Assembly: GCA_006386115.1 (NCBI GenBank)
Contig: VFIW01000012.1
Span: forward strand, 831,128 to 895,127
Length of the DNA: 64,000 bases
Direction of reading: 5' to 3'
DNA from: Globisporangium splendens
Lineage: Eukaryota > Oomycota > Peronosporomycetes > Pythiales > Pythiaceae
How positions within the stretch are numbered: position 1 is the stretch's first letter; every line of letters begins with the position of its first letter. A program made the translations under genes and the position numbers. Positions 2 through 17,483 of the stretch are shown here, in pieces. The notes beneath the pieces are model-generated. The model was not told the origin of the DNA and did no database searches. It saw only the letters and a list, made by a program, of their open reading frames with translations.

Positions 2-1024
2 CGAGACGCAATCGCGAAGGCTCAGGATCTGCAAAAGGAACAAGCAGACAAGAGCGGAAGGAAGAACAAGCAAGTGTATAAGATCAATGATCTTGTATTA
101 CTTAGCGCGGTGAACCTGCCTGAACATGCAGTGTCCAACTTGGGAAGCTTAAAGCTTCTGCCAAGGTTCACTGGACCGTTCAAGGTAGTTAAATGCAATG
201 GTGATGCCTACACGCTAGACATACCTACACGCATGCGTCTACACCCGACATTTTATGTGGGTAGACTAAAGCCTTACCTTCCAAGTGGATCTGCGGATCC
301 TACGAGATCTTCCGCAAACGATCGAGCTGATCGTGGAGCTTCTCCACTTGATTGCGAAGAGCAAACAGCTCATCGCTCTGGAGATTCTTCTCGGCGTACA
401 AGAGTTGCAGGACGTCGAAGGATTGGTCCTTCACTGCCTCCAACGCTTGAAGACGAGAATGGTACTCGCCACGAAGTACCTCGAGTGCCGAACCTGCCTC
501 TTCCACAGAGCGCAAAAGGCGATCGTGAGCCAACTCACGAGACTTCTCGTTCTTCCGGAGTCGAACAAGTTCGTCCTGAACCTGTTGGAACCGTTCCTCG
601 TAACGGGACTCCAAAGCCGAACACTGGGCAGAACCTTCTGTCAGGACGTCGATCTTCGACTCATGATCGGCGACAAGGTTCTCGAGACTCTCGCAGCGTT
701 CCTCAAGCGCCAAACAACGCTGCTGCAAAGCCTCGATTTGCCCACGATGAGCACTCTTCCACTTCCAGAGTCGCTCAATCGTTTTCTCGTTCAGCCCCAC
801 CCCCGTTGTTAGACTCTCAGGGAGAGCATCGCTGGGTGGTTCAGTCGATTGTTGGTCATGAAGATCGACCGACTCATCGTCGAGGAAAGAAGCAGTTGAA
901 CCATCAACGCTTCTACAGAGTTCGGTGGCGTGGATATCCACCGAGCTCGGACACGTGGGAGCCTCGTCAGACATTGGAGTCTGATGTCCCCGACGTGGTC
1001 TGCAGCTATGAGAACTGCTTGTAG
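2..1024 (+). CDS. Gypsy pol C-terminus: integrase tail and chromodomain (partial)
   Basis: The frame is open from base 2 to the stop at 1022-1024; the start is off the window. The first ~80 residues are the typical integrase tail (GPFKVVKCNGDAYTLDIP, then HPTFYVGRLKPY). A Ser/Arg/Pro-rich spacer follows at about 300-800, and a C-terminal chromodomain lies at about 830-1020 (FYRVRWRGYPPSSDTWEP). Chromodomains in this position guide integration to modified chromatin. The spacer lies opposite the antisense coiled-coil ORF at 300-1466. In element B the chromodomain core is unchanged, whereas the spacer carries many replacements. Confidence 0.9.
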   Translation, partial: RDAIAKAQDLQKEQADKSGRKNKQVYKINDLVLLSAVNLPEHAVSNLGSLKLLPRFTGPFKVVKCNGDAYTLDIPTRMRLHPTFYVGRLKPYLPSGSADPTRSSANDRADRGASPLDCEEQTAHRSGDSSRRTRVAGRRRIGPSLPPTLEDENGTRHEVPRVPNLPLPQSAKGDREPTHETSRSSGVEQVRPEPVGTVPRNGTPKPNTGQNLLSGRRSSTHDRRQGSRDSRSVPQAPNNAAAKPRFAHDEHSSTSRVAQSFSRSAPPPLLDSQGEHRWVVQSIVGHEDRPTHRRGKKQLNHQRFYRVRWRGYPPSSDTWEPRQTLESDVPDVVCSYENCL

Positions 1025-1466
1025 CACCGCCAGGGGGGACATTACGACGACCAGAGCTAGGATTCGCTCTGTCGTCAGCGGGAGTTCTTCTTTCGGCACG
1101 GGCATTGCCACGACGAAGAAGACGCTCCATCTTGTTCTCGTTCTCAAGACGAACAAATGTTCGCCATGAGTCTCTCTGGGCTGCGATGTGTTGGTTCGGA
1201 TCATCGCGATCGTTGATCTGACGCCAACTGAAGAACCGCTCCTTGTAGAACTCGAGCTCCCACTTCTTCTTCAGAATGGGAGAAATGTCGAAGAGTTCTG
1301 GAGCTGTCTGCTGTCGCTTGGACGACGGACGTTCTTCACGGTTCACTTGGTCACTTGGTCGCTTCATTGCCGAATGGAAAGTGAACTGCTCCGAAAGGTC
1401 TGCAAAAGTACGCAAGGTACTTGTGACTTTAAGGAGGGGATGATGTAGTGGGCCATAACCAGCCAT
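300..1466 (-). CDS. Antisense ORF of gypsy element A: basic coiled-coil protein (388 aa)
   Basis: This uninterrupted ORF runs opposite to pol. Its ATG (1466-1464) lies 23 bp inside the 3' LTR, and its TAG is at 302-300. The N-terminal third (from MKRPSDQVNREERPSSKRQ) is basic with an NLS-like cluster. A Ser/Thr/Asp-rich linker lies opposite the chromodomain. The last ~165 residues are a strong predicted coiled coil with Leu/Glu/Gln/Lys/Arg heptads. About 420 bp of the ORF (1025-1443) have no sense coding. The same ORF occurs in element B with one stop codon. Plant Tat-lineage gypsy elements also carry an antisense ORF before the 3' LTR, but I recognise no homologous domain here. Function is unknown; a retroelement regulator or structural protein is inference. 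Confidence 0.6.
   Translation of the reverse strand: MAGYGPLHHPLLKVTSTLRTFADLSEQFTFHSAMKRPSDQVNREERPSSKRQQTAPELFDISPILKKKWELEFYKERFFSWRQINDRDDPNQHIAAQRDSWRTFVRLENENKMERLLRRGNARAERRTPADDRANPSSGRRNVPPGGATSSSHSCRPRRGHQTPMSDEAPTCPSSVDIHATELCRSVDGSTASFLDDESVDLHDQQSTEPPSDALPESLTTGVGLNEKTIERLWKWKSAHRGQIEALQQRCLALEERCESLENLVADHESKIDVLTEGSAQCSALESRYEERFQQVQDELVRLRKNEKSRELAHDRLLRSVEEAGSALEVLRGEYHSRLQALEAVKDQSFDVLQLLYAEKNLQSDELFALRNQVEKLHDQLDRLRKIS
1431..1443 (+). other. Polypurine tract of element A
   Basis: The purine-rich run AAGGAGGGGATGA directly abuts the first base of the LTR (TGTAGTGG). The same run precedes the LTR of element B at 12743-12755. This is the expected plus-strand priming site of an LTR retrotransposon. 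Confidence 0.85.
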
Positions 1467-2090
1467 TACATGAAGGTGGATCTGTTCCCAGATCTAGTGT
1501 GGCACACACCACCTTCAGCGTGCATTGTGGAGACACAAATAACAAAAGGGATTACGGTAATACAGTCCCCACATGCACGTGTGACGTCATTCGATGACGT
1601 CACGAGTGTTCTCTGTGCTAATCAGTGCAGAATGTTGTTCTCATGTACTAATCAGTACAGAGCAATGACATCCATGTACTAATCAAGTACTGAGTGATGG
1701 TTCCTGCTTGGGAAACTGCACTGGCGACGAGACCGACGTGTCTCTGCCACCTGGAGTGAGTGGCGCGAGCCAATCACTTTGCAGGGATTTTATACAAGAC
1801 TTGAAGTTCAAGCTTCTAGAAGATCCCGTAGGTTCAACCTCAGTGTACCCAAGGTTTTATATATCAGATTCATAGGTTTTATTGTGTATGTTTAGGTTTT
1901 AGTTATAAAACTGTAGGATCCCTTGGGTTCATTTAAGTTAGCGACAGGAACCATAACCATTTTTAATTCAGTTGCAAATTTTCCTCCAAGCCCTCAAGTC
2001 TTCTTCTCCCTCCAAGTCGGGAGATCGCTTCCTCTGGCACAAGCGTGTGTGCCGTGTTTGAGGGACAGTTATTAACAGCGCCCTCTTACA
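1444..2090 (+). repeat. LTR 1 (3' LTR of element A)
   Basis: This is a 647-bp LTR with ends TGTAG...TTACA. The family ends are the inverted pair TGTAA/TTACA. It carries two TGACGTCA palindromes, three imperfect palindromes built on an AATCA core, a TATA-like TTTTATATATC near 1855-1866, and a conserved TTCAGTTGCAAATTTTCC at ~1968 that loosely resembles the oomycete initiator. Closely related LTRs lie at 5714, 12756 and 16225, with a diverged one at 16878. Confidence 0.95.
1582..1602. promoter_or_regulatory. Paired CRE-type palindromes in the LTR
   Basis: Two perfect 8-bp TGACGTCA palindromes are separated by 5 bp. TGACGTCA is the classical CRE/ATF site for bZIP factors. The same pair with the same 5-bp gap occurs in every LTR of the window: 5852-5872, 12893-12913, 16715-16735 and 17006-17026. 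Spacer bases differ (TTCGA, TGGGA, TCGTC), which suggests that the sites and their spacing are what is kept. That a bZIP factor binds here is inference. Confidence 0.6.
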
Positions 2091-4740
2091 TGACGTCCTC
2101 ACACTCCTTCCATTCTTCTCGCACGACTGGTTTCCTTGCTGTCGCGATCATGGTCCATGTCAACTGGGATCGGACAAATGGCGCCATGATGTTCCGTATG
2201 TGCTCCCACAGTCTTGTTGCGAGAACACACTCGAAGAACAAGTGGTGCTCCGTCTCGACTGCGTCACACCCGTCGCGGATGCAGTAGATGATGCGTGGGT
2301 TCGAGTGTTGCAGGAACCAGAACCGCGAGCGCACGGGGAGAAGCCGAAACGCAAGGCGGAACTGCAGGTCTTCGAACACGGGGAGTAGGATCTTGCGAAG
2401 ATGCTTCCCGTACTTCACGAACGACTTGACTTCTTCGTCACCGACACTTTGCGAGTGCAGCGATATCGGATGGGACTTGCTCGGTGTCTTCGGTTCCCAC
2501 ACGACACGAAGAAGCGCGCTCCTCGGGATCGCTGGGACCAGACACACCTTCGAGCCACTTTTGCATCCCAGGTGAGGGAATGCACACTCACTCCATGTGT
2601 CCGAAGACAAAGGTGCAAGCTCACGCACTCCAAGTCGGACCGCGATCTGTGTCGCTTCTCGGTACAGAGAACGCAACCACTGGGATTGCACACCGAGAGC
2701 CACAGACGCGAGAGTGAGGTCGAGGTGCCGTTGGACAAAGTCGGACTCGCTCGGCCAGGAAGCACCATTGCTCATGAAGTCGACCAGCGAACGCAAGCCG
2801 AAGACCCTCGAGATGTGCAGACGGAACCCGCGCTGGGGTTCTGGCACCATCCCGATGCACCGACGGTGTGCAGCGGTGGTTTGCGACCTCGGAGTCTGCT
2901 CGTAGTGGAGGTCTGGATCCGAGTGGAACCAGATCGGCTGGTTCAGACCATACCAGACACGCTTGTCCGTCGGAAGGTCGTGCCACGAGATCTCCCATCG
3001 GATCTTGTACCACCAGACCCACGTCTCCTCCCACCAACCAGAGATCAACTCCCACTTGATCATCGTGCCATGTCGAAGAGGAGAGACCGTGAGGAAGTCG
3101 AGCGCCGTGCGTCGACCGACTCGAGGAAGAACCGCTGTGAGCAGCTCCGCACTCGGTGTCGTCCAGCTTCTCTCGTCTGGCTTGCTCGCCGATCGCATGA
3201 ACTGGAGCAGATGCTGGAGGCGTTGTCGCTTCAGTTGCGCTTCGATGCTTGGGATCTGCAGACCACCCTCACTCCTCGGGAGATACAAGAACTCCTTCGG
3301 AATGAGCTGGATGTGGCTTGCATCTCGATCGTGCTTCCGACTCAAGACGAACCGATTCAGCATCGACTGCCACCTCTTCACGACCGACGACGGGATCGAC
3401 ACGTGCTGGGTGTAGTGCCACAAGCGAGACAAGACCATCGTTTGCGCCACAAGAAGACGACCGCGAAGAGTCCTTGCTCGTCTGTACCACATCTTGAAGC
3501 CGTCGTAGAAGCGCTGGTCGAGGAAGTTGACGATGTCGTCGTTGACTGGCGACTGACTGAAGGGGATCCCGAGGAACTTGACCGACTCGGCTCGACCAAG
3601 CACATGCACACCAGGGAGCTGGGGACAGATCTCGTTCCGACCAAGCACATGCACACCAGGGAGCTGGGGACAGATCTCGTTCCGATTCAGTGCCATCAGA
3701 TTCGACTTGCCAAGGTTCAATTTCGCGCCAGACCCGTTGCAGTACTCCTCCACGAGCTCAAGCTGCGCTTGCACACTCGCAATGGAGCCTCCCAAAAGAG
3801 TCGTGTCGTCCGCGAAGAAGACACTGGTGGATGTGTGATCCTCGGTGAGGCACACTCCGAACTCTTCGTGGGACCGCAGCAGGTTTCCCAGTGGCTCGAT
3901 CGTGAGAAGGAAGAGAAGCGCAGAGAGCGGGTCGCCTTGCTTCACTCCTCTCGTCGGGAACATCGCAGGCTGGATGTTCTGGTTGATGACGAGGTGTGCT
4001 TGCGGCTCGGTGTACAGCAGTCTCACCCACTGCAAAAAGTCCGAACCACACCCCATTCGCTCGAGCACACGGAACATGTAGTCCCAGTTCACTCGGTCGA
4101 ACGCCTTCTCGAAGTCCAAGAACAGAGCATACGCTTCTTCGTCTCGACTCGTCACCAAGTCCTGCAGATCCGCGAGGAACCGCACATGGTGATGAATCGA
4201 TCGACCTTTGACGAACCCTTTCTGATCCGTGTGGACCAGGTCCGGTACGACACTTTGCAGTCGATAGGTGAGAGCCTTCGAGAGAACCTTGACGTCGACC
4301 GGGATGAGTGCGATCGGTCGGTAGTTGCCTGGTTGTGCTCTCGAGCCTTTCTTGTGGAGAAGCACGACGGCAGACTTGCGCTGAGAAGGAAGCAGAACCC
4401 CTCGTCGAAGTTGGTCGTTGAAGACAAGACTGAGACACTCACCGAAGACGTCCGGAGCGACCTGGTAGAAACCAGCAGTCAAACCGTCCATGCCAGGAGC
4501 CGACGTCGCCTTCATGTGTCGAATCGCATCCGCCAGATCGTGAGATGTGACTGGCGCATTCAGGATGTCTCGATCTGTTTCCGACGCGAACCGGACGATG
4601 GAGTCGAGAAGCTTGCGTTGCATGGTTTCGTCGGGTGGAGGAGCTGTTCCTGCTGGACTGTCGGGATCTCCCATCTCGGACCCCCAGTGCTCCAGGAAGC
4701 GAAGCGATATCTCTTGAGGATTCGATCGAGACCCTTCTCA
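2086..4740 (-). pseudogene. LINE ORF2, reverse transcriptase and C-terminal part
   Basis: The open frame covers the RT fingers and palm: a NYRPIALIPVDVKVLSK block, the DFEKAFDRVNW block, GVKQGDPLSALLF and the catalytic FADDTTL. It ends with a zinc-knuckle/RVT-type end (CDAVETEHHLFFEC). The frame upstream of the first Met continues in phase (RFLEHWGSEMGDP) and then shifts by one base against the endonuclease frame near 4710-4730. The stop codon is supplied by the LTR of element A, so the original C-terminus is lost. A 45-bp in-frame tandem duplication lies at 3593-3682. Confidence 0.9.
3593..3682 (-). repeat. 45-bp tandem duplication in the LINE RT ORF
   Basis: Two identical 45-bp units (3593-3637 and 3638-3682) encode the 15-residue block RNEICPQLPGVHVLG twice in a row just after the catalytic palm. 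The duplication keeps the frame. It looks like a recent slippage or unequal-repair event in this copy. Confidence 0.95.
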
Positions 4741-5713
4741 AGCTCGTGTCCAGCGGACGGAAGAAGTGCTTGGTGGACTTTTCAGAGTTGGCCGCTTGGA
4801 AGTCAAACGCACTGTCCTGGTTGTACTGACTTGTCTGCGTGACCGTCTCCTTGTACATCTTCATGGCTTCTTCGAACTCGCTGCGGTTGTTCTCGGTCGA
4901 CGCATCTCGATAGCGAGCAGCCGCTTGGCCCAACGCAGCTTGAGCCTCTTCGATCGCAGCAGTGTCTTGCATCCGCAGTTTCTTCTGCACGTCTTGGAGC
5001 TGGGTCTTGATTCTCGTCTTCCACCTCTCCCAGATTTGGCCAGGATTGATAGAGCCACGGAGCTGATCTCGGACTGCTTCCGCTTCCTTCTCGACCGCGG
5101 AAACAACCACTGGGTACTCCAGCAGGTAACGGGGAAACTTCCAGTACCCGCGTCCATGCAGCTGGGAGCCAGTCTTGAAACTCACACAGTGAGCAAGGTG
5201 GTCACCAGCGTTCTGGGGAACGAAGTACTTGGAGTCGTCGTAGAAGCGTTCATAGAACGGCTCCGAGAGAAGAATATAGTCCAGCCGGTTCTTGCGAGGC
5301 AAGGGACCAGTGAAGACTCGCTTCGTGTCATGGTGGACACGCCACGCATCCACAACGCCAAGACGAGCAAGCCACGCAAGGCAGCTCGACCGCGCCGGGT
5401 CGTAGCGCAGATCTGGAGACGAGGAGTCGAGTCTGGGATCCAAAGGCGTGTTCAGATCTCCCAACACAAGGTGTGTCGCTCGATCTTCAAAGTCTTCGGT
5501 CGAGAGACTCGAGAAGAATTGTTGCTTTTCCTGTCGGTCCACTGGCGCGTACACGTTGTGGATGTAGACGGGAGCGTCGCTCACCATCAGCTTCACAACG
5601 AGGTACCGACCTGGGACAGCGAGGCTTGGTTGTTCCGCAGCCGTTTCGAAACCCGGCACGTCAGAGCGAAGAACAGTGAGAACACCGCCACTACGCCCGC
5701 GTGTGGGTCGATC
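4700..5713 (-). pseudogene. LINE ORF2, endonuclease domain (downstream part)
   Basis: This carries the C-terminal two thirds of an AP-endonuclease-like domain: VYIHNVYAPVD, then LVLGDLNTPLD (a metal-binding GDxN block), then NRLDYILLSEPF (the S/RLDYIL block). The upstream part of the same domain lies at 13405-13670, beyond element B. Joining the two sides at the target duplication leaves a 1-base phase difference (VNDRTPSW / GRSGGVLTVLRSD), so the LINE probably already carried an indel or gained one at insertion. Confidence 0.85.
5709..5713. repeat. Target-site duplication CGATC (second copy 13405-13409)
   Basis: CGATC directly precedes the left LTR and directly follows the right LTR of element B. 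A 5-bp duplication is normal for Ty3/gypsy integrases. It proves the two LTRs belong to one insertion and fixes the LINE target site. Confidence 0.9.
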
Positions 5714-6363
5714 TGTAATGGGCTATAACCAGCCATTACATGAAGGTGGATCTGTTCCCAGATCTAGTGTGTCACACACCACCTTCAGCGTGCATTGTGG
5801 AGACACAAATAACGAAAGGGATTACGGTAAGACAGTCCCCACATGCACGTGTGACGTCATTCGATGACGTCACGAGTGTTCTCTGTGCTGATCAGTGCAG
5901 AATGTTGTTCTCATGTACTAATCAGTACTGAGCAATGACATCCTGTACTAATCAAGTACTGAGTGATGGTTCCTGCTTGGGAAACTGCACTGGCGACGAG
6001 ACCGACGTGTCTCTGCCGCCTGGAGTGAGTGGCGCGAGCCAATCACTTTGTAGGGATTTTAAACAAGACTTGAAGTTCAAGCTTCTAGAAGATCCCGTAG
6101 GTTCAACTTCAGTGTACCCAAGGTTTTATATATCAGATTCATAGGTTTTATTGTGTATATTTAGGTTTTAGTTATCAAACCTGTAGGATCCCTTGGGGTT
6201 CATTTGTAAGTAGCGACAGGAACCATAACCATTTTTAATTCAGTTGCAAATTTTCCTTCAAGCCCTCAAGTCTTCTTCCTCCCTCCAAGTCGGGAGATCG
6301 CTTCCTCTGGCACAAGCGTGTGTGCCGTGTTCGAGGGACTGTTTGGAACAGCGCCCTCTTACA
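5714..6363 (+). repeat. LTR 2 (5' LTR of element B)
   Basis: This is a 650-bp LTR with ends TGTAA...TTACA. It has paired TGACGTCA sites at 5852-5872, a TATA-like TTTTATATATC near 6125, and an initiator-like TTCAGTTGCAAATTTTCC near 6240. It differs from LTR 3 by about 20 substitutions or small indels. Confidence 0.95.
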
Positions 6364-7532: not shown

Positions 7533-10500
7533 GGGAGAGGCCTCCTACTGGCCCGGAAAAGAGGACTGTGGACGTTGTAGAGACACAGGACTCTGGCTCC
7601 TATGTGCATCAAGCACATGCAGTTTCCACTATGAGTGAGAAGAGTGTCAGTCAAACGTCAAGTTTGATCGTTCACAAAGTTAATGTAGACGGTATTGCAA
7701 CGCCTCTACGAGCTTTGGTTGACACTGGTGCGTCGAACAACTTTGTTCGAAATGAAGTGACCGTCAGGCATGGCGTCTTCGTGCCTGATGCGAATGAAGA
7801 GAAGACAATGATTGTCCGGTTGGCAAATGGGTCGACTGTGAAGATGCCGAAGGTGTGGTGCGCTTGGCAATCGAGTGTGAAGATTTCCGAGGTGAAGACG
7901 AGTTCATTTTACTCGACCTCGATGACAAGTTTGATGTTATCCTGGGAATGCCGTGGTTGAAGCGTTACCAACCTAGCATTGACTGGATGAATATGAAGAT
8001 CTCCGTTGGCAAGTTACGCGATGCTGACTTGTGCTGCACAACAACGGATGAAGTGGCATGGGTGTACACATCTGTGGAAGAGATCCCAGATGTCCCTTGT
8101 GATATTGCGGTGTGCGATGGCCCCCCATGTTCACAAGTGGTACCCATTTTGAAGACGACGAACGGAGGTGGAGCAGTCAGGCGCCAGAAAAAGACTGTCT
8201 CCTTTGCCATCGACGACGAGAAGATTCGTGATGGCGTCGACAAGAGTGAATGGAAGTGGAATAGACACCCTTCCCAAGACAAGAAGAAGAAGACCAGCAA
8301 GAGAAGTGTTTCGTCAAGAGTTTTGAGTACCCCTGATCAAGGTACAAGTGGTGATGACGAAGGGAGTGTCCAAGCACAAGACACTCCAAGCGAGTTTATG
8401 AATATCGCGGTCTACAATGAAGAAGGTGACGTGGATGTAATCCGTCACGTGAAGATTGAAAATCCTCCAAGTTCAGTCCAAGAGTTGATTTCCTTGCCAT
8501 CGATGAGCAAGAAGACACTGGAGCGCAGCCTAGCGAGAGGCGATATTGCGCAGAGTGTGTGTGATCGTCGAAATGGTCGACGAAGGCTTCGTCAACAGCA
8601 TCGTCGAGTGCGGATGCAGATGTGTTGGACGAAAAGACACGGAGGAAAGGTTCGAGGAGCAGTCGTGGGACGCCCTCAAGAAGAACCCCGTGTATGCGCT
8701 TGCCAGGGAATTTGAAGACATTTTCCCTGACAAGGTGCCGGACGAACTGCCATTCGATAGAGGCATTCGTCATGAGATTGATGTACTTCCTGGCACGAAG
8801 TACTGCATCCAAGACAGTGGCCGTTGCCAAAGGAACAAGTCGAGGCAATCGACGAGTTCTTTGCACAACGGTGCTAAGCTGGTCATGTGCGGGAGAGCAA
8901 GTCTCCGCATTGCAGCCCCACTTTCTGTGTGAAGAAGGCAACTAGAGGTTGGCGCATTGTTCATGCTTTCAACAAATTGAATGATGCGACAATTCCGTCC
9001 CAGACTCCGGTTCCACGCAAGGACATGATCCTTGATGGAATGGTTGGCAGCACCGTCTTTAGTGCTATCGATCTGAAAGATGGGTTCTGTCAGATTCGAA
9101 TGCGCGAAGACGATGTTCCACTAACCGCAGTGAGTACCCCGAGTGGTATGCTGTGGGATGTTTCGTGGTGCCACGAGGACCTGAAAGAATGGCTCCTGCG
9201 ATACCTTCAATCGAATGGTCACGAACACGTTTCTTCGGCCTTTGCGGTAGACATTTCACCAAGTTACTTTGCCGATATTTTCGTTCTGGTAAAGACCCCG
9301 AATGGGAATCGGATGTCGATGTTCATCTCGATCATCTTCGTCAGTTTTTCCCGGTCATGCGTGAGAACAAACCTCTAAGCGCAAACTGTAAGAAGTGCAT
9401 GTTCTTCGCGCCCCGAGATCCCTGTTCGCGTTTGTTTTGGTGCAAGAGCGGTGTTCGAGTCGGATCCGGAGAAGGTCCAAAGCTATTGACGATTGGCCAG
9501 TGGCCTCAGAATTCAAACAGCCTACGACAATGGTTGGTCTGCCCAACTACTTGCACCGAAACGGCGCAATTATGCAGCGTTGGTGCAACCCCTCACACAG
9601 TCTCTTGAAGGAAAAGACGTTGAGTGGAAGTGGCGAAAGACATGAGAGGCATTCGAAGAAGTCAAGAGAGGTCTTCGAGAAGCTCCCGTGTTGGCTCTGC
9701 CAAACCACGACAAGCCGTTCCACGTCGTCTGTGATGCGAGCGACTATGCCATCGGTTGCGCATTGATGCAACACGATGATGAGGGTCACGAGCGAGTTGT
9801 GTCATATCAGTCACGACAACTCCGACCCGCAGAGCGGAACTGCCCAGTTCATGACAAGGAACTTCTGGCGATGAAGTATTCTTTGGTCAAGTTCCGTGTG
9901 TATCTGCTTGGCGAGGAGCACTTTGCTATCTACACTGATCACGCATCTCTGCGTACGGCAGTGAAGACTCCTCATTTGTCGCAAAGAATGGCGAGATGGT
10001 TCTCCTTCTTTGCAGAGTAACAACTTTGTGTACACGTACAAGCCAGGCAAGGACGAACATCTTAGCCGCTGCGCTGTCAAGACGGTCCGTATTACGAGTC
10101 CGAAGACCAAGAGTGAAGGCACGGACGGAGCGTGTCAACTCTGTGAAGATGTTCAAACGATCGCGGTGCAAGCGACGACTACAGTGCGAGAAGAGATCGT
10201 CGAAGGGTACAAGTCTGACGAAACATGTCAGGACTTGTTGAAGTACTTCAAGGACCCTTCCGACAAAGCACTGCAAGGTCTTCCGTCGCGCACAAGATCG
10301 CGAGTTCACCACTTCCGAGTACACAAAGGGTTGTTGTACTATGCGGTTGAACAAGGGGATACAGCCGGGCTGTGATTCCAACGACGAAGGTCTGTGCGGT
10401 TCATCGACTCTTGTAATGAGTACCATGACCGTCCTTCGGTGGCCATCTCGGCGTGAGAAAACGTTTCTCAGTCTTTCCCGGTTATTACTACTGGCCACAC

Positions 10501-11442: not shown

Positions 11443-12336
11443 GTGTCCAACTTGGGAAGCTCCAAGCTTCTGCCAAGGTTCATTGGACCGTTCAAGGTAG
11501 TGAAATGCAATGGCGATGCCTACACGCTAGACATACCTACACGCATGCGTCTACACCCGACATTTTATGTGGGTAGACTGAAGCCTTACCTTCCAAGTGG
11601 ATCTGCGGATCCTACGAGATCTTCCGCAAACGATCGAGCTGATCGTGAAGCTTCTCCACGTGATTGCGAAGAGCAAACAGCTCATCGCTCTGGAGATTCT
11701 TCTCGGCGTACAGGAGTTGCAGGACGTCGAAGGATTGGTCCTTCACTGCCTCCAACGCTTGAAGGCGAGAATGGTACTCACCACGAAGTACCTCGAGTGC
11801 CGAACCTGCCTCTTCCACAGAGCGCAACAGGCGATCGTGAGCCAACTCACGAGACTTCTCGTTCTTCTGGAGTCGAACAAGTTCGTCCTGAACCTGTTGG
11901 AACCGTTCCTCGTAACGGGACTCCAAAGCCGAACACTGGGCAGAACCTTCTGTCAGGACGTCGATCTTCGACTCGTGATCGGCGACAAGGTTCTCGAGAC
12001 TCTCGCAGTGTTCCTCAAGTGTCGAACAACGCTGCTGCAAAGCCTCGATTTGCCCACGATGAGCACTCTTCCACTTCCAAAGTCGATCAATCGTTTTCTC
12101 GTTCAGCCCCACCCCCGTTGTTAGACTCTCAGGGAGAGCATCGCTGGGTGGTTGAGCCGATTGTTGATCATGAAGATCGACCGGCTCATCGTCGAGGAAA
12201 GAAGCAGTCGAACCATCAACGCTTCTACAGAGTTCGGTGGCGTGGATATCCACCGAGCTCGGACACGTGGGAGCCTCGTCAGACATTGGAGTCTGATGTT
12301 CCCGACGTGATCCGCAGCTATGAGAACTGCTTGTAG
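11443..12336 (+). pseudogene. Element B integrase tail and chromodomain
   Basis: This corresponds to 74-1024 of element A with about 95% identity. The chromodomain core (NHQRFYRVRWRGYPP...) is identical at protein level. Just upstream (~11330-11440) the sequence diverges from element A and contains a run of A residues, so this part is no longer joined in frame to the integrase core. Confidence 0.85.
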
Positions 12337-12778
12337 CGTCGCCAGGGGCGACACTACGACGACCAGAGCTAGGATTCGCTCTGTCGTCAGCGGGACTTCT
12401 TCTTTCGGCACGAGCATTGCCACGACGAAGAAGACGCTCCATCTTGTTCTCATTCTCAAGACGAACAAATGTTCGCCATGAGTCTCTCTGGGCTGCGATG
12501 TGTTAGTTCGGATCATCGCGATCGTTGATCCGACGCCAACTGAAGAACTGCTCCTTGTAGAACTCGAGATCTCCCTTCTTCTTCAGAATGGGAGAAATGT
12601 CAAAGAGTTCTGGAGCTGTCCGCTGTCGCTTGGACGACGGACGTTCTTCTCGGTTCACTTGGTCACTTGGTCGCTTCATTGCCGAATGAAAAGTGAACTG
12701 CTCCGAAAGGTCTGCAAAAGTACGCAAGGTACTTGTGACTTTAAGGAGGGGATGATGTAATGGGCTATAACCAGCCAT
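11612..12778 (-). pseudogene. Antisense coiled-coil ORF of element B, one stop codon
   Basis: This is the second copy of the antisense ORF. The N-terminal frame (ATG at 12778, inside LTR 3) reads 91 residues to a TAA where element A has CAA (Gln). The same frame then stays open from 12502 to the TAG at 11612, including the whole coiled coil. In the coiled-coil part 14 bases differ from element A, and 10 of them fall on third codon positions of this frame. The single nonsense change suggests loss in this old copy rather than that the frame never coded. Confidence 0.55.
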
Positions 12779-13404
12779 TACATGAAGGTGGATCTGTTCC
12801 CAGATCTAGTGTGTCACACACCACCTTCAGGGTGCATTGTGGAGACACAAATAACAAAGGGATTACGGTAATACAGTCCCCACATGCACGTGTGACGTCA
12901 TTCGATGACGTCACGAGTGTTCTCTGTGCTGATCGGTGCAGAATGTTGTTCTCATGTACTAATCAGTACAGAGCAATGACATCCATGTACTAATCAAGTA
13001 CTGAGTGATGGTTCCTGCTTGGGAAACTGGACTGGCGACGAGACCGACGTGTCTCAGCCATCTGGAGTGAGTGGCGCGAGCCAATCACTTTGCAGGTATT
13101 TCAAACAAGACTTGAAGTTCAAGCTTCTAGAAGATCCCGTAGGTTCAACCTCAGTGTACCCAAGGTTTTATATATCAGATTCATAGGTTTTATTGTGCAT
13201 ATTTAGGTTTTAGTTATCAAACCTGTAGGATCCCTTGGGGTTCATTTGTAAGTAGCGACAGGAACCATAACCATTTTTAATTCAGTTGCAAATTTTCCTC
13301 CAAGCCCTCAAGTCTTCTTCTCCCTCCAAGTCGGGAGATCGCTTCCTCTGGCACAAGCGTGTGTGCCGTGTTTGAGGGACTGTTGTGAACAGCGCCCTCT
13401 TACA
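12756..13404 (+). repeat. LTR 3 (3' LTR of element B)
   Basis: This is a 649-bp LTR with ends TGTAA...TTACA, preceded by the polypurine tract at 12743-12755. The paired TGACGTCA sites are at 12893-12913. It is followed at once by the CGATC duplication. Confidence 0.95.
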
Positions 13405-13670
13405 CGATCCAACTGGGAGTTCGGTCATTCACGAAGACTTGGTGCTTGAAGCTTGAGTCGAGGTGAAACTTGAAGGTCGAGAGGTGTTGCTTGTCGCTGA
13501 ACTTGGTTTCCTGGACACACGATATCGAGTGCTTCGATACCATGTTGTCGATAAATAAGTGACCGTTGTCTTTGATGCCGTTAGTGTTGACGGTCAAGGC
13601 ACTAATGTTGTTCCACGAGGGCTGAGTCGAGGTTGGTTTAGCAACTGACAGCGAGGCTGCCCGCTACCAT
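13405..13670 (-). pseudogene. LINE ORF2, endonuclease N-terminus
   Basis: The minus-strand frame reads LTVNTNGIKDNGHLF ... ISCVQETKFSD, the start of an APE-type endonuclease (Asn- and Glu-containing first blocks). It runs into the LTR of element B and is the missing 5' half of the domain at 4700-5713. No convincing ATG lies upstream before a TAG, so ORF2 may start at the Met at 13597 or by another mechanism. Confidence 0.8.
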
Positions 13671-16224: not shown

Positions 16225-16872
16225 TATAAGAGGGCGCTGTTCACAACAGTCCCTCAAACACGGCACACACGCTTGTGCCAGAGGAAGCGATCTCCCGACT
16301 TGGAGGGAGAAGAAGACTTGAGGGCTTGGAGGAAAATTTGCAACTGATTAAAGATGGTTATGGTTCCTGTCGCTACTTACAAATGAACCACAAGGGATCC
16401 TAGAGGTTTTATAACTAAAACCTCAACATACACAATAAAACCTATGAATCTGATATATAAAACCTTGGGTACACTGAGGTTGAACCTACGGGATCTTCTA
16501 GAAGCTTGAACTTCAAGTCTTGTTTAAAATCCCTGCAAAGTGATTGGCTCGCGCCACTCACTCCAGGTGGCAGAGACACGTCGGTCTCATCGCCAGTGCA
16601 GTTTCCCAAGTAGGAACCATCACTCAGTACTTGATTAGTACATGGATGTCATCGCTCTGTACTGATTAGTACATGTGAACAACATTGTGCACTGATCAGC
16701 ACAGAGAGCGCTCGTGACGTCATGGGATGACGTCACATGTGCATGTGGGGATTGTCGTACCGTAATCCCTTTGTTGTTTGTCTCTCCACAATGCACACTG
16801 AAGGTGGTGTGTGGTACACTAGATCTGGGAACAGATCCACCTTCATGTAATGGCTAAGTATAGCCCATTACA
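16225..16872 (-). repeat. LTR 4, solo, inverted
   Basis: This is the reverse complement of the same LTR family, with TGTAATGGGC reading from 16872 leftwards and the far end near 16225 (TATAAGAGGGCGC, one base off TGTAAG). No internal element sequence adjoins it. I see no matching 5-bp duplication (AGGAT left, CGGAG right). It marks the right end of recognisable LINE sequence. Confidence 0.9.
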
Positions 16873-16877
16873 CGGAG

Positions 16878-17483
16878 CGTAAGGCTAAGGCTGCCATTAC
16901 ATGCAAGGTGGCTCTTTGTGTGTGTCACACACCACCTTGTGGAAGTGCATTGTGGGTGCGAAGATATTGGGTGAAACACATAATAGTGATCCCCACATGC
17001 ACTTGTGACGTCATCGTCTGACGTCAGAGCAATCTGTGTCTGAGTTGAGTGTTGGTCGCTCGCAATCATTGAGATTCGGCGTGATTACGCACAACAGTAC
17101 TCTAGACATGTGAATGATGGTTCCTACTTGGGAAACAACACTGGCGATGAGATCGACGTGTTTCTGCCACCTGGAGTGAGTGGCGCGAGCCAATCACTTT
17201 GCAGGGATTTTATACAAGACTTGAAGTTCAAGCTTCTAGAAGATCCCGTAGGTTCACCCTCAGTGTACCCAAGGTTTTATATATCAGATTCATAGGTTTT
17301 ATTGTGTATGTTTAGGTTTTAGTTATAAAACCTCTAGGAGCCCTAGTGGTGTTTTACATGTAGTGTCAGGAACCATAAGCTCATTTCAATTCAGTTGCAC
17401 TTTTGCCAAGTTCCCCTCAAGTCTTCCTCTTCAAGCGCAAGCGTGCGTGCCGTGTTTGAGGCTGTCTCGGATAGCCTCTTACA
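16878..17483 (+). repeat. LTR 5, solo, diverged
   Basis: This is a 606-bp degraded LTR on the plus strand, starting at CGTAAGGCTAAGG and ending TTACA. It keeps the paired TGACGTCA sites (17006-17026), the TTTTATATATC block (~17274) and the TTCAGTTGCA block (~17390). It has lost most of the three AATCA-core palindromes. It lies head to head with LTR 4, 5 bp apart, and ends 85 bp before the tRNA gene. Confidence 0.85.

Follow-up and report, generated by a model that had tools for sequence, protein, structure and literature searches.

The window examined here, a stretch of 64,000 nucleotides of Globisporangium splendens, raises the question of whether a long reading frame running antisense to the end of a gypsy-type polyprotein is a gene, and if so where it begins and what its protein may do. 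An earlier note made from the sequence alone had described this frame as 388 codons long with its ATG inside a 3' LTR, and on both counts it was right: the frame occupies 300-1466 on the minus strand, and the ATG at 1464-1466 falls within the LTR at 1444-2090. The analysis shows that a chromodomain Ty3/gypsy family of G. splendens encodes an antisense protein of ~350 amino acids that overlaps the 3' end of pol (Table 1).

Table 1. Coordinates of the features discussed, as positions in the window.
Feature	Position	Strand	Remarks
SH3_Tf2-1, integrase C-terminus of sense pol	89..277	+	aa 30-92
Sense spacer, SH3 to chromodomain	278..832	+	residues drift, frame kept open
Sense chromodomain (Chromo)	833..1012	+	aa 278-337; purifying selection in sense frame
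Antisense gene, conserved coding part	300..1367	-	355 aa and stop codon; begins with MKR, 1367-1365
Single long helix, coiled coil, residues 184-354	306..818	-	AlphaFold2 pLDDT 88-98
Predicted disordered linker, residues 94-179	831..1088	-	AlphaFold2; spans opposing chromodomain 833-1012
Conserved N-terminal helical domain, residues 29-93	1089..1283	-	AlphaFold2 pLDDT about 75-90
Initiator-like motif	1369..1384	-	INR TCACTTT (exact YCAYTYY) 1384-1378, 2 nt, weak FPR-like 7-mer
In-frame upstream extension to LTR ATG	1368..1466	-	start not conserved; out of frame in cluster B
3' LTR of element A	1444..2090	+	by comparison with the LTRs of the second element (element B)
Paired TGACGTCA-N5-TGACGTCA in LTR	1582..1602	.	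in all four element clusters
5' LTR of element B	5714..6363	+	
3' LTR of element B	12756..13404	+	
Second antisense gene copy (element B)	11612..12679	-	broken by one TAA

The elements and their antisense gene

The sense frame of element A at 2-1024 is the C-terminus of pol. Element B has LTR termini TG...CA, is flanked by the target-site duplication CGATC (5709-5713 and 13405-13409) and has recognisable gag and RT. A single RT_RNaseH was found in it, at 9646-10020, the next open piece of this broken element (9965-10375) matching no family, and no RNase H is contained in the 97-101 residues that precede the zinc finger of the integrase in two copies from two clusters (L002 and L009). In the same two copies H2C2, rve, SH3 and chromodomain lie within one stretch of 739 residues, an integrase make-up shared with chromoviruses; the present elements differ in that about 186 residues separate SH3 from chromodomain and are occupied by the antisense coiled-coil gene, and they are chromovirus-like by their domains alone. 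The chromodomain matches with E values of 4e-10 to 1e-11, and a Chromo family search of the whole genome listed 150 places. Chronos, from Peronosporales and Pythiales, is likewise an oomycete Ty3/gypsy element with a C-terminal chromodomain, but is described with a dual RNase H, a gypsy RNH followed by an archaeal-type RNH (PMC5348765, in excerpt); the word 'antisense' is absent from the main text of that paper. By eye, frames on the minus strand at 2086-5659 resemble a non-LTR retrotransposon, with a reverse transcriptase at 2086-4674 and an endonuclease-like part at 4439-5659, and as the 3' LTR of element A ends at 2090, at these frames, element A may be inserted there.

Copies were sought in the G. 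splendens genome of 53.3 Mb in 195 contigs. With the antisense protein as query the best 106 of 499 candidates were scored, and 85 of the 106 were stop-free, in a list biased towards good copies; a second query, from a subfamily about 60% identical, gave at least 116 scored of 477 candidates and a metagenome homologue at least 107 of 442, the three lists (106, 116 and 107) sharing places and all favouring good copies. A sample chosen through the integrase, taking every sixth of 131 scored matches (805 candidates), comprised 20 copies, of which two had neither frame, three were truncated in both and 15 retained most or all of the antisense region. The antisense frame was open and single in 12 of these 15 (in two of the 12 the alignment begins only at residue 16 or 32) and interrupted in three, by one frameshift and two stops; the sense spacer and chromodomain were stop-free in 14 of the 15.

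By tblastn with references A and B the chromodomain lies opposite the antisense ORF in 69 of 69 records and on the same strand in none, these records being 68 fetched loci plus the window copy WA, whose locus is L001, and hence 68 distinct loci. A first chromodomain motif, RVRWRGY, had matched only 40 of the 69, the sequence of cluster B being different at this point. One record also showed an SH3 match on the antisense ORF's own strand. The codon alignment holds 63 records and excludes those with premature stops (L026, L032, L036 and L038), those in which MKR was not detectable (L054 and L059) and WB, where the motif was missed. These open-frame records fall into clusters A (23, with the window copy twice), B (26), C (13) and D (one), protein identity being 60% between A and B and 81% between A and C; all counts out of 69, 63 or 61 contain the window-copy locus twice.

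Two database searches returned 80 and 91 proteins matching the antisense protein. Those 95% identical to the query carry the name of G. splendens, and metagenome homologues reach down to 41% identity; one scan of viral contigs did not find the gene. In the annotation, 283 member sequences in 62 NCBI-sourced clusters match the antisense gene, nearly all named hypothetical proteins, and part of the 17,350 predicted G. splendens genes are therefore transposon genes. Genes of the published draft (53.3 Mb) were called by AUGUSTUS with earlier transcriptome data as hints (PMC7163027), which makes the deposited models weak evidence of expression. Some deposited models fuse the antisense gene with Copia or pol pieces (P0043, P0051).

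Selection by strand and the age of the overlap

The antisense gene overlaps the sense frame over about 240 of its 355 codons and codes alone, past the sense stop, over about 340 bp (1025-1367); an antisense-only stretch had been noticed earlier and is real, but is shorter than the ~420 bp (1025-1443) then given. The third position of an antisense codon is the second position of a sense codon, so that the two frames predict different patterns. Between clusters A and B the rates of difference at antisense positions 1, 2 and 3, from pairs that are not independent, were 0.31, 0.30 and 0.50 in the antisense-only part, 0.27, 0.19 and 0.41 in the spacer, and 0.14, 0.24 and 0.11 in the chromodomain. 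dN/dS in the antisense frame over many copies, which the earlier note had suggested as a check, had medians of 0.23-0.31 over the antisense-only part and spacer (the coiled coil) and 0.72-1.81 over the chromodomain; sense medians were 0.30-0.34 over the chromodomain, 1.32-1.95 over the spacer, and 1.1-1.95 opposite the coiled coil and antisense-only part together. These medians come from 72, 40 and 45 pairs, likewise not independent, with every third member per cluster, and as simple dN/dS is distorted in overlaps the raw codon-position counts matter.

In such counts the window copy differs from one cluster B copy, over the 176 codons of the spacer, at 47, 35 and 73 sites of antisense positions 1, 2 and 3 (p=3e-5) and from one cluster C copy at 23, 26 and 50 (p=3e-4), a third single-pair test giving p 0.03. 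In the antisense-only part single-pair tests against cluster B gave p 0.003 and 0.01, one pair of A with C showed no significant position bias (p 0.46), and over the short chromodomain the single-pair tests were not significant (p 0.06, 0.67 and 0.21). Within cluster B the spacer has no codon-position bias (0.016/0.015/0.016), which is expected if the differences arose after insertion. Selection alternates by strand, the antisense frame being protected over the coiled coil and the sense frame over the chromodomain.

The antisense ORF is a genuine protein-coding gene. Antisense frames opposite GC-rich genes can stay open, and a chance frame produced by sense-strand codon composition might be imagined on that ground, but the coding signature of the gene persists unchanged for 340 bp past the sense stop, and the protein that drifts in the spacer is that of the sense strand; on these two observations the chance frame is refuted, its probability being next to nil. 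The earlier note had held that random antisense stops beside a sense spacer that stays open would speak against a gene, and what is found is a spacer that conserves the antisense protein while sense residues drift. The antisense coiled-coil frame that it described is borne out as a conserved gene by homologues, many open copies and purifying selection in the antisense frame, and the reciprocal layout that it read from the letters agrees both with the predicted structure (helix 306-818, disorder 831-1088) and with the segment-wise evolution.

The first sense stop stands at its usual place just beyond the chromodomain in 58 of the 63 records. A null that keeps the antisense residues and picks randomly among their synonymous codons predicts 3.4-5.0 sense stops over the spacer, where five of six loci have none and the sixth has one; in the antisense-only part, where sense is non-coding, the same null expects 2.8-5.1 and 2-3 are observed, so that it overpredicts there and the strength of stop avoidance in the spacer is overstated. 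It would seem that the amino acids of the spacer are free and its openness constrained, which fits translation through to the chromodomain, with ribosomes reading from the integrase through the stop-free sense spacer.

The antisense residues permit the hallmarks of the opposing chromodomain better than shuffled residues do in 47 of 48 proteins (p at most 0.003; 48 of 50 aligned proteins were usable, the window protein included), the one failure being P0033. As shuffling destroys homology, a stricter null of random replacements at changed positions was used. In nine distant relatives (41-54% identical) changed linker residues still permit the window chromodomain residue in 322 of 444 cases against 158 expected, with 455 of 959 against 351 in the spacer, and five relatives at 59-67% gave 127 of 162 against 67 over the chromodomain and 263 of 490 against 204 in the spacer; since the spacer also exceeds the null, as single-base changes would cause, only the larger chromodomain excess is signal. 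Judged from the relatives' protein sequences, the overlap is probably older than the relatives at 41-54% identity.

Capture of host genes has been discussed as an origin of extra ORFs in retroelements (PMC7264820, in excerpt), and the antisense gene might on that precedent be host cargo recently acquired. This is very improbable, as no homologue with a cellular name is among the 80 and 91 database matches (unnamed short contigs could not be placed), the chromodomain is linked in 68 of 68 distinct loci and the overlap seems older than homologues of 41-54% identity.

L002 (cluster A) and L039 (cluster C) are about 89-98% identical in the internal region and 74-85% in the coiled coil, the LTR of L039 differs in part from that of L002, and in cluster D (L056) the coiled coil is of A type and the chromodomain region of C type. 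This suggests that the coiled-coil module was swapped between element lineages; template switching between co-packaged RNAs would be the ordinary explanation of such a mosaic.

The start of the gene and the paired LTR site

The earlier note had placed the start of the gene in the LTR, and this part of its account is not supported, the conserved start being the MKR at 1367. An antisense promoter inside the 3' LTR with translation from the LTR ATG, in the manner of retroviral hbz or asp, would suit an ATG that lies in the LTR and is in frame in the printed copies of cluster A, and retroviral LTRs do drive antisense genes (PMC10186651, in excerpt). In cluster B, however, the ATG of the LTR is not in frame, and the stretch from the polypurine tract to MKR has a different sequence; nor is this ATG common to the 21 relatives (41-93% identical) aligned with the window protein, in which the MKR methionine is nearly invariant, distant homologues included. 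The 33 upstream codons lie partly over the polypurine tract and the LTR edge. Directly before MKR, TCACTTTCCAAT is conserved even in cluster B, and several deposited G. splendens gene models begin at the same MKR, for example P0049 with 38 members.

Between the LTR and this start codon sits an oomycete initiator motif. In Phytophthora infestans the initiator is YCAYTYY followed after 2 nt by the FPR MWTTTNC, and INR, FPR and their combination have also been detected in Pythium ultimum (PMC3599244, in excerpt). Here 60 of 63 records, with all four clusters represented, have an exact INR 17 nt upstream of MKR, an FPR-like 7-mer with one or two mismatches is present in 63 of 63, and clusters A and B keep the INR though their surroundings are only about 60-79% alike. 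A broader 12-mer initiator occurs four times in the window against 0.62 expected, two of the four being at the two copies of the antisense gene, and the exact INR with FPR (up to two mismatches) was found on neither strand of the three window LTRs. The predicted start A is 1382, 15 nt upstream of the MKR ATG, and the predicted leader is thereby shorter than the 32-144 nt (median 50) of the leaders of 121 P. infestans genes (PMC3599244, in excerpt). The position of the motif outside the LTR and 17 nt before MKR makes it probable that antisense expression begins outside the LTR, contrary to the LTR-driven expression first proposed. A start within the LTR is distinctly unlikely; on these motifs there is a good probability that the antisense gene is transcribed from an oomycete initiator of its own, just inside the LTR boundary.

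The sequence TGACGTCA, which we take to be the classical CREB/ATF site (CRE), occurs in the LTR as a pair 13 nt apart from start to start, ~137 nt into the LTR in most A and C records and 130 nt in most of B. At least one site is present in 60 of 61 LTRs and both in 51 of 61, 61 of the 63 LTRs having been read (L065 was too short and L029 had no recognised LTR start). The pair pattern, which is its own reverse complement, occurs at 713 genome places, not each checked as LTR, and at none in a backward-read control. Two more paired sites 291 bp apart, at 16715-17026, are possibly LTR remnants of the same family. The LTR opens with an inverted repeat, TGTAATGG-N10-11-CCATTACA (window 1444-1470 and 12755-12783), whose arms, unlike its middle, are kept in the printed copies of clusters A-D; element A has a mutation in one arm.

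Possible role of the protein and comparison with known systems

AlphaFold2 gave the antisense protein a mean pLDDT of 74 and a pTM of 0.30. A bipartite NLS-like stretch, MKR...KRQ, read by eye, precedes the N-terminal helical domain, and TIERLWKWKSAHR near the start of the long helix is nearly invariant. The earlier note had recognised no homologous domain, and Pfam and structure searches likewise recognised no known fold or family and gave no structural match supporting any molecular function. At E<=1 the window protein has no Pfam match to TRP28 (PF04195) or bZIP, nor does TRP28 appear in the 25 families listed, out of 59, for 27 members.

Overall, a tiled overlap with its own initiator, producing a nuclear accessory regulator, is the best explanation, and we hold it with slightly more confidence than doubt. 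The protein would enter the nucleus via its NLS-like N-terminus, self-associate through the coiled coil and help, as an accessory factor, to regulate transcription or integration of the element, most likely at the LTR by way of chromatin or a host transcription factor; this functional part is tentative and falls somewhat short of an even chance. The long coiled coil and NLS-like N-terminus would also suit a structural or transport accessory that joins the particle or the pre-integration complex and aids nuclear entry or chromatin tethering with the chromodomain integrase, and for the antisense ORFs of plants a part in the pre-integration complex has been proposed (PMC7264820, in excerpt). This is an unlikely reading, since antisense expression uncouples the protein from Gag-Pol stoichiometry and the element already has a gag and a chromodomain. 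A further possibility is that the antisense RNA is the functional product, through silencing or dsRNA, and the protein counters or accompanies the silencing; antisense transcripts over pol would indeed pair with genomic RNA, as discussed for plants (PMC7264820, in excerpt). RNA function alone, however, does not explain purifying selection at the protein level and a silencing-suppressor role is without specific support, and we regard this possibility as rather improbable.

The accessory regulator that we prefer invites comparison with other antisense proteins, and the parallels drawn in the earlier note, with plant gypsy elements and with retroviral antisense genes, can be upheld as parallels. 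Antisense ORFs are likewise found at the 3' end of LTR elements in the plant aORF-3R group (Retand, Grande gene23, RIRE2 and PvRetro13) and in Boty of Botrytis; those of plant gypsy elements sit between pol and the 3' LTR, and for Grande gene23 a promoter lying upstream and a product in the nucleus are described (PMC7264820, in excerpt). In Retand, antisense ORFs with TRP28 are present in the majority of clusters (PMC11963269, in excerpt). Plant aORFs are likewise present in most copies of their families, some with relatives in several species (PMC7264820 and PMC11963269, both in excerpt), and a nuclear function is suspected there (PMC7264820, in excerpt), as we infer here. In contrast to them, the present gene overlaps pol itself, across spacer and chromodomain, with selection that alternates; the TRP28 of the Retand/Tat aORF was not matched at E<=1, and whereas Retand is described as a non-chromovirus, this is a chromodomain element in which one RNase H was found.

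HBZ of HTLV-1 and APH-2 of HTLV-2 are likewise antisense proteins near the 3' LTR with an NLS-like stretch, seen by eye in our case, and a C-terminal coiled coil (PMC10186651, in excerpt). The same account places CREB-type sites in the viral LTRs, where here there is TGACGTCA, a CRE on our own assumption; in HTLV-1 CREB-type factors serve Tax and are opposed by HBZ, and APH-2 is without a bZIP and still interacts with CREB (PMC10186651, in excerpt). The present protein differs from HBZ in having no Pfam bZIP match at E<=1, a helix of about 170 residues and an initiator apparently outside the LTR. The paired TGACGTCA permits an HBZ-like circuit by analogy, and may simply serve sense transcription. 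It is conceivable, as a speculation of low probability, that a stramenopile retrotransposon has arrived convergently at HBZ/APH-like feedback, in which a nuclear coiled-coil protein made from its own promoter would modulate host bZIP factors at the conserved paired TGACGTCA of the LTR and curb copy-number growth, the swapped coiled coil setting partner specificity.

A description of an antisense gene in oomycete elements was not found in the open-licence literature searched. With this finding the gypsy elements of oomycetes gain a full-length antisense gene in overlap, apparently equipped with its own initiator. It is a clean case of a long antisense overlap in which selection can be told apart for each strand and each segment and brought into register with the predicted order and disorder, the strand-resolved selection being backed by many copies and by distant relatives. 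It also accounts for 283 mostly 'hypothetical protein' sequences in the G. splendens annotation, and with it the role of antisense ORFs in LTR retrotransposons becomes testable in a new lineage.
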